Virus record (IMG/VR): IMGVR_UViG_3300033144_001577
Span: 1 to 45,882 of that record
DNA length: 45,882 bases
Reading direction: 5' to 3' (one strand)
Origin: a virus
Below the pieces are notes generated by a model. The model was given only the letters and a program-made list of their open reading frames with translations, was not told the origin of the DNA and made no database searches. Below are positions 18,188-45,708 of the stretch, one piece after another. Made by a program: the position numbers and the translations under genes. Every line of letters begins with the position of its first letter. Positions within the stretch are counted from its first letter, which is position 1.

Positions 18188-18462
18188 TATGCCGATTTAT
18201 GAATTTGAATGTCCAGTGTGCGGAACTATCGATGAAGTTCTTGTAACAAGAGAAGGTACTAAAACCGCACTGGCCAATGGTAAGTTCATTAAAGTGTGTT
18301 CATGGTGTGGACATAATACTTGGAGAATAATGTCTACTGGTAACTTCCGGGTGACCGGGGCTAACGCCAAGAATGGCTACTCTTCGATCCCTACCTATGA
18401 TGAGGTAGTCGATGAGAATGGATACCAGAAAGAAAAATGGGGTAAATAATATGCCGATTTAT
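18181..18462 (+). repeat. 20-bp direct repeat over two start codons
   Basis: TAAATAATATGCCGATTTAT occurs at 18181-18200 and 18443-18462. Each copy contains the ATG and first four codons (MPIY) of the gene that follows it: the FmdB-like gene at 18189 and the HNH gene at 18451. The duplication flanks the former gene. Confidence 0.85.
18189..18449 (+). CDS. FmdB-like zinc-ribbon protein (86 aa)
   Basis: The pattern MPIYEFECPVCGTIDE followed by CSWCG (about residues 38-42) is that of FmdB-family zinc ribbons, small proteins of putative regulatory function found in bacteria and some phages. The C-terminal half (NFRVTGANAKNGYSSIPTYD) also fits. ATG 18189 follows GGGAGGAATAAATA. The gene is flanked by a 20-bp direct repeat covering its own start and the next gene's start. 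Confidence 0.75.
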   Translation: MPIYEFECPVCGTIDEVLVTREGTKTALANGKFIKVCSWCGHNTWRIMSTGNFRVTGANAKNGYSSIPTYDEVVDENGYQKEKWGK

Positions 18463-18918
18463 AGGGAAGGTCTAACAAATAAATATAATCCAGAATATAA
18501 AGTGTGGCAAGCAATGATAAGAAGATGTCATAATCCAGATGATAAATCCTATGAGGATTATGGTTTAGATGGAATAACTGTTTGTTCACGATGGAAAAGT
18601 ACAAATGGATTTAAAAACTTTTTAAATGATATGGGTGTTAGACCTTCAGGAAAAAGTGGTGATATTCATCTTGATAGGGAAGATGCTGATTATGGTTATC
18701 ATCCATGTAATTGTCAATGGGTAACAAGACGAGAAAATATATTAAATAGTTCTCATACTCGTTGGGTAACTTTTAAAGGTAAAACTTTATGTTTAAAAGA
18801 CTGGGCAAGAGAATTAAATATTAATTATAATACCCTTTTTAATAGATTGAATGCTTATGGTTGGTCAATCGAGGAAGCATTTACTATACCAATTAGGGGA
18901 AAGAGGAAAAATAAATGA
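18451..18918 (+). CDS. HNH-type homing endonuclease, copy 1 (155 aa)
   Basis: Free-standing homing nuclease of the phage HNH/AP2-linked type. Signatures in order: MIRRCHNPDDKSYEDYGLDG, ITVCSRWKS, the HNH-like LDREDADYGY and CNCQWVTRRENILNS, then a NUMOD-like helix-turn-helix domain (WVTFKGKTLCLKDWARELNI, TLFNRLNAYGWSIEEAF). The frame is open upstream, but ATG 18451 is preferred because the sequence from there matches the paralogues at 20682 and 22532. It ends in ATGA overlap with the holin gene. The start region is a copy of the previous gene's. Confidence 0.88.
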   Translation: MPIYREGLTNKYNPEYKVWQAMIRRCHNPDDKSYEDYGLDGITVCSRWKSTNGFKNFLNDMGVRPSGKSGDIHLDREDADYGYHPCNCQWVTRRENILNSSHTRWVTFKGKTLCLKDWARELNINYNTLFNRLNAYGWSIEEAFTIPIRGKRKNK

Positions 18919-19948: not shown

Positions 19949-20685
19949 GAACTCTCTTGATCGATGCTGATATCTTTATGTTCAAATTTGGATTTCGTTA
20001 CCAGACTTCAATTGAATGGGGTAACTCAATTGTTACTGTAGATGTTGATGACGTTAGGGCAAAGCGTGACATAGATAAATTTATCTTATCATTATTAAGA
20101 AGAACAAACTGTGCTGATTATACTCTTTGCTTTACGAATCAGATCAACTTCAGGTACTCAGTTTTCCCGGCATATAAAGCTAACCGGGTAAAGAACGAAA
20201 AGCCAAAGCTGTTAACAATATTGAAGGATCATATGTGGAAGAATCATCCGTGTGAGTCATGGAAGTATCTTGAAGCAGATGACTTGATGGGTGTTATAGG
20301 TACCCACGATCCTAAGAGGTATGTGTTAGCAACAATTGATAAGGACTTTGAATCTCTACCGGTCACCTTATTTAATTGGGATAAAGACAAAAGACCAAGG
20401 AAGATCAGTAAGAAACAAGCTAACTATAATTTTCACTATCAATGGTTGAAAGGAGATCCAGTTGACGGATTTAAAGGAGTCTTTGGAATTGGAGATAAGA
20501 AGGCAAGGACTATACTCGATGCAAGACCTCAACGTGAATGGTCTGCTGCTGTTGTCGAAACTTATGCAGATCGATGTTACTCCTGGAAAGAAATAATTAT
20601 TCAAGCAAGGATGGCTCGTATTTTAAGATGCACTGATTATGATTTTAAGAAGAAAAAACCTATTCTATGGACACCTAATATATGA
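19930..20685 (+). CDS. 5'-3' exonuclease, T7 gp6-like (251 aa)
   Basis: Flap-nuclease-type fold: a metal-binding start (LLIDADIFMFKF), a helical arch region (FRYSVFPAYKANRVKNEKP), LEADDLMGVIGT, ATIDKDFESLP, and the helix-hairpin-helix DPVDGFKGVFGIGDKKA. The C-terminus (QARMARILRCTDYDFKKKKPI) matches the end of T7 gp6, so the gene is full length. It removes RNA primers and degrades host DNA. ATG 19930 follows AAGGGGAGAGTTTAACTCT. Its stop overlaps the HNH gene start (ATGA). Confidence 0.9.
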   Translation: MANPKIRTLLIDADIFMFKFGFRYQTSIEWGNSIVTVDVDDVRAKRDIDKFILSLLRRTNCADYTLCFTNQINFRYSVFPAYKANRVKNEKPKLLTILKDHMWKNHPCESWKYLEADDLMGVIGTHDPKRYVLATIDKDFESLPVTLFNWDKDKRPRKISKKQANYNFHYQWLKGDPVDGFKGVFGIGDKKARTILDARPQREWSAAVVETYADRCYSWKEIIIQARMARILRCTDYDFKKKKPILWTPNI

Positions 20686-21110
20686 GAGATTTATATAAAA
20701 AACAAATATACATGGTTTGCTACAACATGATTCATAGGTGCTATGACCCTTTATCTACTTCTTTTGAAAACTATGGGCTTGATGGGATTAAGGTTTGTAA
20801 ACGTTGGAAGGGAGATAATGGTTTTAAAAACTTCATAAAAGATATGGGTAAACGTCCTGCTAAAGGATATCAGTTGGATCGTGAAGATTCTGATTATGGT
20901 TACACTCCTTGAAATTGTAGGTGGGTTACGACTCGTGAGAATCAACTGAACACGAGCAATACAAGATGGATAACTTTTCGAGGGAAGACTTTGTGTTTAA
21001 GTGACTGGGCTAAAGAATTAAATATTAATTTATTTACTTTAAACTCCCGATTAAATCAAGCTGGCTGGTCTGTTAAAAAGGCGTTCACAACACCAGTGAG
21101 GAGAAGATAA
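20682..21110 (+). pseudogene. HNH-type homing endonuclease, copy 2, broken by TGA
   Basis: A paralogue of 18451 and 22532: MIHRCYDPLSTSFENYGLDG, VCKRWKGDNGFKNF, LDREDSDYGYTP, then NCRWVTTRENQLN and the helix-turn-helix region (WITFRGKTLCLSDWAKELNI). TGA at 20910-20912 replaces the Trp in the conserved P-W-N-C-R-W motif. The frame is otherwise intact to TAA 21108 (142 codons). A G-to-A transition (TGG to TGA) explains it; sequencing error or readthrough are alternatives. The start overlaps the exonuclease stop. Confidence 0.85.
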
Positions 21111-22331: not shown

Positions 22332-22532
22332 ATGAAACCTATTCCAAGAATGTCTGTTGACCTAATCGAACAAATAGCGAAAGACGAACCTGAACTTGAT
22401 ATTACACCTCAAGTTAACCTTGAAGTGATCATGTATAGATCAGGTAGAATATCTATGATTAAAGAGTTACTGTATCGACTTGAATATTTTGAGAAGAACG
22501 GTGATCCTGATAAGACGGAGATAAAAATATAA
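22332..22532 (+). CDS. Unknown small protein (66 aa)
   Basis: ATG 22332 follows AAGGAGTTAACTAT. It is acidic near the start (EQIAKDEPELDITPQVNLEV) and helical after. The stop overlaps the HNH start (TAATG), suggesting that it marked the insertion site of the nuclease. First gene behind the candidate promoter at 22277. Confidence 0.6.
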   Translation: MKPIPRMSVDLIEQIAKDEPELDITPQVNLEVIMYRSGRISMIKELLYRLEYFEKNGDPDKTEIKI

Positions 22533-22978
22533 TGAAAAGAGATATGGGTGGATTAACTACACATGAAGATTATGAAGTTTATAGAAATATGATTCGTAGA
22601 TGTTATGATCCCCTATCTGCTTCTTTTGAAGATTACGGTCTTAGAGGAATAAAAGTATGTTACAGATGGAAAGGTTTAAATGGATTAAAACATTTCCTTG
22701 AAGATATGGGAGATCGCCCTAATAAGAATTATCAACTTGATCGTAAAGATAATGATCAAGGATATTCACCTTGGAACTGTAGATGGTGTACTCGTAAAGA
22801 AAATAATTTAAATAGAAATAGTACACACTGGATAACTTTTCGAGGAAAAACATTATGTATGCAGGATTGGGCTAAAGTTTTAAACATTAATTATACAACC
22901 TTATCCAGAAGATTAAACCAATTAAATTGGTCGGTTGAAAAAGCTTTTACAACTGATCAACGGAAATATAAGAGGTGA
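22532..22978 (+). CDS. HNH-type homing endonuclease, copy 3 (148 aa)
   Basis: Intact paralogue: MIRRCYDPLSASFEDYGLRG, IKVCYRWKG, LDRKDNDQGYSP with W-N-C-R-W-C-T-R, then WITFRGKTLCMQDWAKVLNI and TLSRRLNQLNWSVEKAF. The intact PWNCRW motif shows what the TGA in copy 2 has destroyed. It is coupled to the gene before (TAATG) and its end carries the AGAGGTGAT site of the gene after it. A free-standing homing gene in an operon gap. Confidence 0.88.
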   Translation: MKRDMGGLTTHEDYEVYRNMIRRCYDPLSASFEDYGLRGIKVCYRWKGLNGLKHFLEDMGDRPNKNYQLDRKDNDQGYSPWNCRWCTRKENNLNRNSTHWITFRGKTLCMQDWAKVLNINYTTLSRRLNQLNWSVEKAFTTDQRKYKR

Positions 22979-43042: not shown

Positions 43043-43213
43043 ATGAGTAAATATAAGGATTTGCAGGACATGACGTTTGGTAGACTGACTGTTCTGCAAA
43101 AGCTTAGTTCTAATAAACACGGTAAATTACAATGGTTATGCTGTCGTTGCCCAGCTTCATGGTCTATTGAAAAGTCATTAACTACACTTGTGAAAAAACA
43201 TGCAAAGCTTTAA
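43043..43213 (+). pseudogene. HNH endonuclease N-terminal remnant before terL
   Basis: ATG 43043 has the strong site TAAGGAGGACTT. The peptide reads MSKYKDLQDMTFGRLTVLQK then SSNKHGKLQWLCCRC, the standard N-terminal domain of phage HNH homing endonucleases (FGRLTVL...G...W.C.C). It loses similarity after the C..C and stops at 43211, inside terL, in another frame. The expected catalytic half is missing. It probably uses what was the terL ribosome-binding site. Confidence 0.75.
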
Positions 43214-44276
43214 AGATCGATGTAAAACTCATTTTGATATGTTCATGGGTGTTTGCTGGAAACATCTTAACCTACCAAGTCCAACTAAAAGACAAATTGA
43301 AATAGCACAATATCTTCAATTTGGTTCTAAGCGCGATATGATACAGGGGTTTCGCGGAATTGGCAAATCGTGGTTAACGAGTGCTTTTGTTTGTTGGTTA
43401 TTATTTAATGATCCGCAGTTAAAAATCCTTGTTGTATCAGCATCTAAGGGGAGGTCTGATGCATTTTCGACTTTCACTTTGAAGCTTATCAAAGAGATGC
43501 CAATGTTGAAACACCTTACTCCAAGACATGACCAGAGAGAATCTACCGTACTATTTGATGTGGCACCAGCAAGGAATGCCCATGCTCCTTCTGTGCTTGC
43601 TGCTGGTATCTCCGGACAGATTACGGGTACAAGAGCAGATATCATCATTGCAGACGATATTGAGATTCCTAACAACTCTGCAACTGATACCATGCGTGAA
43701 CAGCTGGTAGATCGCGTTGGCGAATTTAATGACATTTTAGTTCCAGAAAAGGAACCCCGTATTATCTTCCTGGGGACTTGTCAAACAGAAGAGTCAATCT
43801 ATAATAAACTAAGATTACGAGGATATTGTTGTAGAATATGGCCAGCAAGATATCCAAATAGAAAACAAATCTTAGGTTACCAAGGTGCACTGGCTCCAAG
43901 CATACTCCGTGAACTTGAAGCTAACCCGGAGTTAGAAGGGCAACCTACCGATCCTCAGAGATTTGATGATGCCGATCTTACAGAACGAGAGGTCTCTAAG
44001 GGTAGATCATCCTTCGCCTTACAATTCATGTTAGACTGTACGTTGTCAGATGCCAACAAGTATCCTCTGAAGACCGGCGACCTGATCTGCATGGATCTTA
44101 ATCCAGAAAAGGCACCCAGCTTTATCCAGTATGGCTCGGATAAGGATCAGATCCTTAAGGATTTAAAGAACGTGGGCTTTGCCGGTGACCGTTGGCATAG
44201 ACCAATGATGTACGATAAAGACAAGTGGACTAAGTATGAAGGTATTGTAATGGCTATCGATCCATCTGGTCGTGGT
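43200..44276 (+). CDS. terL: Terminase large subunit, exon 1 (residues 1-359)
   Basis: ATPase half and start of the nuclease domain of the packaging motor, T7 gp19-like. Walker A lies in QGFRGIGKSWLTS; the Walker B region is ADIIIADDIEIP; GTCQTEESIYNKL follows the T7 protein. The exon ends in MAIDPSGRG; T7 has DPSGRG followed by KDETGY. An in-frame TGA lies three codons before ATG 43200, so no earlier start exists, and the ribosome site is poor. Reading through the 5' splice site gives only EICASTRII before TAA. The spliced protein is 566 aa, against 586 in T7. Confidence 0.94.
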
Positions 44277-45084
44277 GAAATCTGCGCCTCTACCAGAATA
44301 ATATAAGAAATTCATTTAATTGCTGGGACATCTCCTTAGAGACAATCAGCAGCCAAACTCTTAATTGAGAAGGTTCAGAGACTATTAGTACACTCAAAGG
44401 TTGAGTGGAAAAGGTGAACATTAAGAAGATATAGTCCGAACTCTATGGTGACATAGAGAGATGATGTAACGAATCATCGTAACACTTAAAATAGAAAGGA
44501 ATTAACTAATGACTAAATTTAGACAGAAAACAAGACTTTACAAAGTTTATCATATTCACATGATTAATAATTATAATCTATCTGAGGGGTATATTGGAAT
44601 AACAAGAAGATCACTCAATATGCGTTTAGGTCAACACTTAAATAGTAAAAGACCTGTTGGTAATTATCTCCGGGCTATAGATAAATCCTTAATAACTATC
44701 GATGAGCTTAGTAGGTTATGCAAAGAAGAAGCTCTGAATATGGAATTTAAGTTACGACCAAAAAGATTTATAGGTTGGAATGAAATGGCTGGTGGTAATA
44801 GATCAACAGTTAAGTGCCCAACATGTGGTAAACTACTACCTAAACGTAGGTCTGGAACTTATTGCGAAGATTGCAATAATTGTAAATTTCCTAAAGGCCA
44901 TATTCCTCATAACTATGGTCAAGGTGAGAAATATAAGTTAACTGATCCTAACGGGAAGGTTTACTATCCAGAGGTCTTTACAATATTTTGTAGAGATCAT
45001 AATCTTACACCACAAAATTTACGAAAAGTATCCAAAGGTAAACGTAAACATCATAAAGATTGGTCAGCTATCCGGCTGTAATTG
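44277..45084 (+). ncRNA. Group I intron in terL (808 bp)
   Basis: A self-splicing intron. The exon 1 end is ...GGT (U before the splice, as in group I) and the intron ends in G (ATTG). Removing 44277-45084 restores GRG-ADETGY in frame. Core elements are visible: P4/P5 (GCTG 44322 with CAGC 44347; TCTC/GAGA inside), P7 5' strand in GTTCAGAGACTA (44373-44384), P8 hairpin CACTCAA/TTGAGTG (44391-44407), P7 3' strand in AAGATATAGTCC (44426-44437), and P9 hairpins CTCTATG/CATAGAG (44441-44458) and GATGAT/ATCATC (44460-44478). P1 is not resolved. It carries a GIY-YIG endonuclease gene. Confidence 0.93.
44509..45081 (+). CDS. GIY-YIG homing endonuclease in the intron (190 aa)
   Basis: ATG 44509 follows GAAAGGAATTAACTA. 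The fold is seen as KVYHIHM and GYIGITRRSLNMRLGQH (the GIY-like and YIG strands and catalytic Arg), CKEEALNMEFKLRPKRF with a candidate catalytic Glu, and GWNEMAGGNRS. Residues about 100-125 have a zinc finger (CPTCGKLLPK ... CEDCNNC) and the end is a NUMOD-like DNA-binding segment (FCRDHNLTPQNLRKVSKGKR). It cuts intron-less terL and spreads the intron. Its stop TAA (45079-45081) lies three bases before the 3' splice site, so the gene is wholly inside the intron. Confidence 0.92.
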   Translation: MTKFRQKTRLYKVYHIHMINNYNLSEGYIGITRRSLNMRLGQHLNSKRPVGNYLRAIDKSLITIDELSRLCKEEALNMEFKLRPKRFIGWNEMAGGNRSTVKCPTCGKLLPKRRSGTYCEDCNNCKFPKGHIPHNYGQGEKYKLTDPNGKVYYPEVFTIFCRDHNLTPQNLRKVSKGKRKHHKDWSAIRL

Positions 45085-45708
45085 GCAGATGAAACCGGAT
45101 ATGCTGTCGTTGCTCAGCTTCATGGTAAGCTTTTCGTGTTAGCTATTGGTGGACTTAAAGGTGGCTACTCAGATGAGACATTGGAACAACTGGCTCACAT
45201 TGCCAAGCATAATAAGGTTAGACAGATTATCATTGAGTCTAACTTTGGTGACGGCATGTATACCAAATTGTTATCTCCGGTGATGGCTAAGATCTATCCA
45301 TGCTCTATGGAGGAGGTCACACACTCCACTCAGAAAGAGAAGAGGATAATTGATACCCTTGAACCTGTAATGAATCAACATAGACTTGTGATTAACCTGT
45401 CAGAGATTGATAAGGATATTGCATTCCTTATGGAGAACCCTGAGAGGAACCAGCGGTACTCATTCTGTCATCAGCTTACCCGGTTAACGAAAGACCGTGG
45501 TGCATTGAAACATGATGATAGACTTGAATCCCTCTCCATTGCAGTGGATTACTATGTTGAGTCCATGGATCGAGATGAACAGAAAGCTCATGATGAGCAT
45601 AGTGATAAGCTGTTACAGGCTGAAATTAAAAAGCATTTGGACTGTTGCCTTGGTCATAAATCTAATATGTTCGATCAGGGATTTCTAAGTAAGCGTTTTA
45701 ATAGGTAA
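45085..45708 (+). CDS. terL: Terminase large subunit, exon 2 (residues 360-566)
   Basis: Starts ADETGYAVVAQLHGKLFV directly after the intron. It contains the rest of the RNase H-like nuclease domain: IIIESNFGDGMYTKLL, KRIIDTLEPVMNQHRLVINL and TKDRGALKHDDRLESLSIAV, as in T7 gp19. The apparent TTG start at 45082 belongs to the intron. A candidate promoter follows the stop by three bases. Confidence 0.94.
   Translation, partial: ADETGYAVVAQLHGKLFVLAIGGLKGGYSDETLEQLAHIAKHNKVRQIIIESNFGDGMYTKLLSPVMAKIYPCSMEEVTHSTQKEKRIIDTLEPVMNQHRLVINLSEIDKDIAFLMENPERNQRYSFCHQLTRLTKDRGALKHDDRLESLSIAVDYYVESMDRDEQKAHDEHSDKLLQAEIKKHLDCCLGHKSNMFDQGFLSKRFNR

Follow-up and report, generated by a model that had tools for sequence, protein, structure and literature searches.

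A mobile group I intron predicted in the terminase nuclease motif of a T7-like phage

The divided terminase gene

The large terminase gene (terL) of the virus record IMGVR_UViG_3300033144_001577 is divided within a conserved nuclease motif, which raises the question of what kind of element divides it, where its ends lie and what it would demand of the gene that carries it. The window analyzed here is the whole 45,882-base record. Its gene content is T7-like and includes a single-subunit RNA polymerase, a primase/helicase, a DNA polymerase, a head-tail adaptor, and major head and tail proteins. The terL exons, the intron with its parts and the HNH remnant described below all lie on the plus strand. 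Judged on its sequence features, the stretch 44277..45084 is almost certainly a real, precisely placed mobile group I intron of 808 nt, closed by a terminal G (omega-G, G45084) and carrying the gene of a homing enzyme.

The insertion point lies directly after the terL codons for DPSGRG. Exon 1 (43200..44276) encodes the large terminase from the ATPase domain to AIDPSGRG (phrog_38, terminase large subunit, E 1e-67) and ends with GGT at 44276; exon 2 (45085..45708) opens with GCAGATGAA at 45085 and encodes the RNase H-like nuclease domain (PF22530, Terminase-T7_RNaseH-like, E 3.9e-36). Joined, the two read MAIDPSGRG-ADETGYAVV in frame, and the predicted spliced TerL is continuous over its ATPase and RNase H-like nuclease domains, as a T7-type large terminase should be. 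Its alignment to a solved T7-family terminase (8dgc_E, E 8e-149) passes through the junction ungapped, and 4bij_A (E 7e-138) is matched over residues 8-463. The terL frame of the unspliced message meets a stop codon 30 nt past 44276, leaving an ORF of 368 aa. Since the nuclease domain would be lost from this product, it is a reasonable inference from the sequence that packaging of the phage depends on terL splicing.

Comparison with uninterrupted alleles places both ends at single-base precision. We retrieved 80 IMG/VR contigs (L002-L081) as encoding relatives of terL exon 2, and in 79 of them the exons abut with zero extra bases at exactly 44276/45085; the remaining one (L077) ends before the junction and is thus uninformative there. 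Exon 1 is 80-84% identical in amino acid sequence to its counterparts in L002-L003. The closest terL relatives, L002 and L049, both lack the intron; their identity to the window is 84% over exon 1 and 75% over exon 2. These results bear out the ends (GGT before the intron, G as its last base) and the in-frame rejoining to GRG-ADETGY that a preliminary description had given, and they supply the intronless homologues that it had suggested looking for. Its assignment to group I likewise held up in a covariance search, where the only Rfam match in the window was RF00028 at 44267-44458 (79.2 bits, E 1.3e-18, against a gathering cut-off of 50 bits).

Intron fold and choice of splice sites

The core is nearly full, with P1, P3, P4, P5, P6, P7, P7.1, P9, P9.1 and P10 present. 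In the RF00028 alignment and in RNAalifold, P3 (44311-44316/44413-44418) encloses P4 (44321-44326/44346-44351), P5, P6 and P7.1, the whole spanning 44311..44418. The guanosine-binding helix P7 (44380..44436) is formed by GACTA at 44380-44384 and TAGTC at 44432-44436, strands that are essentially invariant among 11 homologous introns and are also placed by the RF00028 alignment. P9 (44441-44458) and the P9.1 hairpin (44460-44478), together 44441..44478, were recovered by the RF00028 alignment, the minimum free energy (MFE) fold and RNAalifold. Across the 11 homologous terL intron cores, RNAalifold gave 42 consensus pairs, 30 of them with two-sided compensatory change. The core first proposed for this intron (P4-P5, P7, P8 and P9) was found as regards P4, P5, P7 and P9; P8 did not emerge from the consensus fold.

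P1, which had been described as unclear, was found as an extended helix. Its 5′ strand (44265..44277) consists of the exon sequence TCTGGTCGTGGT and the first intron G, with U44276 at the 5′ splice site, and its 3′ strand is the internal guide sequence CGCCTCTACCAGA (44285..44297), in which G44286 pairs with U44276. In the pairing of TCTGGTCGTGGTG (44265-44277) with CGCCTCTACCAGA (44285-44297), 11 of 13 positions are paired (pair string :||.|.||||||), with the canonical U.G at the splice site. The unconstrained MFE fold of the raw sequence (z -2.7) contains the same P1 hairpin along with P4, P5, P6, P7, P7.1, P9 and P9.1. In the 11-core alignment the P1 columns are unreliable; P1 was taken instead from the splice-site test of 14 introns described below. 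The helix is long, extending over 12 positions through the U.G with 2 mismatches, where SP6-like introns have 6 perfect pairs, and a docking geometry of this kind could lower the efficiency of splicing. Contiguous with the U.G pair, just 5′ of G44286, the intron strand of P10 (ATCTGC, 44280..44285) pairs with the start of exon 2 (GCAGAT, 45085..45090) in a perfect 6-bp helix. When all positions that follow a G in 44500-45700 (1.2 kb) were scanned for pairing, only 45085 offered at least 6 P10 pairs, and this perfect match fixes the 3′ splice site.

Three other readings of the locus were weighed against this one. The intron could be real and yet splice 6 nt upstream, between TCTGGT and CGTGGT at 44270, to give DPSG-ADETGY. 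The SP6-like relatives use the codon that corresponds to 44270, and TCTGGT can form a perfect 6-bp helix with ACCAGA, the pairing that the preliminary description had put forward for P1. That helix does exist, as the foot of the extended P1, but as a splice-site P1 it was rejected for the window phage: splicing at 44270 would drop two residues that are kept in relatives gapless through the junction, and it would put a U-A pair in place of U.G. The P10 strand belonging to that site (GCCTCT) is also without a partner at a usable 3′ site, its matches of at least 5 pairs falling at 44585, inside the intron, and at 45443. We consider this alternative very unlikely, and splicing at 44276/45085 remains the preferred reading.

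A degenerate intron that has kept its fold and lost the capacity to splice, leaving a terL pseudogene or a defective phage, is slightly less probable again. The source is a metagenomic contig, which would suit such a reading, but the core positions are intact, both exons are open and conserved, P1 and P10 match the local exons and the endonuclease ORF is intact. The chance that the insert is an intein or another in-frame insertion is negligible. A conserved catalytic motif is a typical site for inteins too, but this reading is excluded by the terL frame, which runs into a stop codon 30 nt inside the insert; moreover, the nuclease has its own ATG and ribosome site, and a group I core is present. 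For the functional intron, which we favor, the course of events would be the usual one. Within the terL transcript, the internal guide sequence would pair with the end of exon 1 (P1, U44276.G44286), the adjacent ATCTGC would pair with the start of exon 2 (P10), and a guanosine bound in P7 would drive two-step splicing to an uninterrupted T7-type TerL (DPSGRG-ADETGY). A message left unspliced would yield the 368-aa protein without a nuclease domain.

Endonuclease gene, mobility and an HNH remnant

The intron contains an ORF for a predicted GIY-YIG homing endonuclease of 190 aa (44509..45081), placed after P9.1, ending 3 nt short of the 3′ splice site and preceded by an AAAGGA ribosome site. It was assigned from Pfam matches (GIY-YIG and I-HmuI_NUMOD-like) and conserved residues. 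On its own, the window protein scores 20.4 bits against the GIY-YIG model, just under the Pfam curated cut-off of 22.6, but PF01541 is matched by all nine family members examined at E 0.1 or better, and the positions Y14, Y28, G30, R39, H43, E79 and N91 are invariant in the family. The presence of a GIY-YIG gene in the intron, as first described, thus stands, with catalytic positions conserved. The protein is 45% identical to ORFs from terL introns of Klebsiella phages. An I-HmuI-like DNA-binding C-terminal tail was likewise found in 9/9 members examined (structure match 1u3e_M kept), and the window protein has an extra zinc-ribbon-like insert with two C-x2-C pairs (CPTC...CEDC). Structure matches of the nuclease to TAL effectors were discarded as sums of weak repeat matches of ~5 bits each.

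The distribution of the intron is patchy, as expected of a homing element. When 90 terL rows were placed on a tree, the window was nested in a clade of five rows (SH-aLRT 100) whose other members have no intron, and 4 changes of the intron label are required over the tree as a whole. The tree was built quickly, several of its branches are long and its deep joins are unsure, though the window's own branch is short; its intronless rows were chosen as relatives of the window terL, and it does not convey how frequent the intron is elsewhere. Intronless alleles at the identical site together with this patchiness are as expected of a mobile intron. The predicted target of the GIY-YIG enzyme is the conserved motif in terL alleles that lack the intron; once cut, such an allele would receive a copy of the intron by recombination.

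The start of terL carries traces of another endonuclease. Between the upstream ORF (in the position of terS) and terL lies a 56-aa remnant of an HNH homing-endonuclease ORF (43043..43213), which overlaps the terL start by 14 nt. Both of its ends are kept and the HNH core is gone: the first 33 residues match HNH endonucleases (phrog_374, E 1.1e-6 for the N-terminus), and the last ~17 (WSIEKSLTTLVKKHAKL) resemble the C-termini (WSIE..LT) of intact HNH genes in the window and in L002. In L002 and L049 this slot is filled by a complete HNH gene, which likewise overlaps the terL start by 14 nt. Inside the remnant, at the join of its two ends, is a 27-nt copy (43137..43163, 26 identical) of terL exon 2 at 45100-45126, with a match score of 24, where 200 shuffles gave 14 at most. 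Short matches at the edges of the copy (TATGC, TGGT) suggest templated repair. The copied tract begins 15 nt past the intron site, and a donor so close to that site hints at a break there, which as one case only is to be taken as a lead. Among the other retrieved loci, a search for self-repeats resembling this exon 2 copy gave just 14-nt chance matches, a pattern scan of IMG/VR with exon 2 detected no more copies of the 27-nt tract, and a scan with the HNH remnant returned six distant HNH genes and no further copy of the remnant.

By analogy with F-CphI and psbA, the HNH gene in this slot might be a free-standing homing endonuclease that acts on the same terL motif and has converged with the intron (collaborative homing), in which case the 27-nt copy would be the scar of a mis-repaired break at the motif. 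We regard this scenario as improbable, though worth recording. Three more HNH genes of the same type are present in the window (18412-18918, ~20660-21110 and 22532-22978), 54-63% identical to the HNH gene of L002.

Homologous introns and comparison with known systems

By tblastn, the GIY-YIG protein has homologues in 56 phage records; in 22 of these the match extends over most of the protein. In each of the nine of these 22 that were retrieved (L084-L092), the GIY-YIG gene lies inside a group I intron (RF00028 above cut-off) in the terL of a KP34-like, SP6-like or VEN phage. A single-sequence scan of IMG/VR for close relatives of the protein returned none, and an alignment-based scan of the same database returned 11 GIY-YIG loci, two of which were the VEN and phD2B records again and four of which (L101-L104) accompany a T7-type terL. 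Splice sites were derived and tested for 14 introns. Every one has a U.G pair at the 5′ splice site and ends in G, the terL frame is restored in each case, and each P10 pairs with the intron's own exon 2. When P10 guides were tested across eight lineages, each formed 5-10 contiguous pairs with the exon 2 of its own gene; the window guide makes 6 such pairs, against 0 or 1 with the exon 2 of each of the other seven lineages.

Three splice points are used within 6 nt: after DPAG in SP6-like phages, VEN, L105 and L108, after DPSGR in L104, and after DPxGxG in the window, KP34-like phages, PA28, L101 and L102. Introns of the DPxGxG and DPSGR classes share a mismatch at the fourth position of P1, PA28 and L102 excepted. 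P1 and P10 change along with the exons and are refitted at each splice point. Further group I sequences were seen in these and other phages. ZH4 (L084, 1722-1971) and Henu2_3 (L085, 1771-2016) have a second group I intron, which precedes the homologous one and lies in the half of terL that encodes the ATPase, and a weak sub-threshold match (23.9 bits) in a gap within terL exon 1 of L108 (1196-1426) may be a diverged second intron. A strong group I core (102 bits), ~70% identical to the window core, is present in Vibrio phage D181 (L082, 2954-3161), whose record does not annotate it as an intron.

Relatives of the window intron are already known in the terL of other T7-like phages. Nowicki and colleagues described terL of phD2B as split by an intervening homing endonuclease into two ORFs, proposed an intron, and found this layout within its group in K1E alone (PMC4246154). 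Terminases are counted among the favored targets in a review (PMC3984707). We found no description of the three alternative splice points in a limited search of the open-licence literature. The present results change no principle; they extend a little-described terL intron family across T7-like phages and offer a clear instance for comparison, with a single intron lineage occupying three splice points spread over 6 nt of the terminase nuclease motif. Annotators should expect split terL genes, as should those who build terL-based phylogenies.

Among known systems, the SP6-like Autographiviridae (Lelliottia phage phD2B, Escherichia phage K1E, Salmonella SE29, Klebsiella KpnP_VR702) and Vibrio phage VEN have a terL intron in the same nuclease motif, with RF00028 scores above cut-off and a homologous GIY-YIG protein (36-42% identity) that shares the I-HmuI-like tail. 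They differ from the window in splicing after DPAG, 6 nt upstream, in their short 6-bp P1 and in a terL that is only ~33% identical. The KP34-like phages (Klebsiella P284, ZH4 and Henu2_3; Pseudomonas PA28) splice at the same position as the window (after DPAGCG or DPAGNG) and resemble it in their similarly extended P1 and in a GIY-YIG protein 47-49% identical, but their terL belongs to another clade and their nuclease is without the zinc-ribbon cysteines. In the metagenomic T7-like contigs from IMG/VR (L101, L102/L103 and L104), a T7-type terL holds a group I intron with a GIY-YIG protein 52-59% identical to that of the window, although L104 splices 3 nt upstream. Bastillevirinae phage SIOphi, a Bacillus phage, likewise has group I introns in terL, which splice in vitro and in vivo (PMC11878797), but its terL is of another family (phrog_675) and the endonucleases are of other types. 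The DNA polymerase introns of T7-like phages (Bonocora and Shub, 2004; I-PfoP3I of Pf-WMP3, PMC3428280) are also group I introns in a core gene; they differ in the host gene, and the Pf-WMP3 intron encodes an HNH nuclease.
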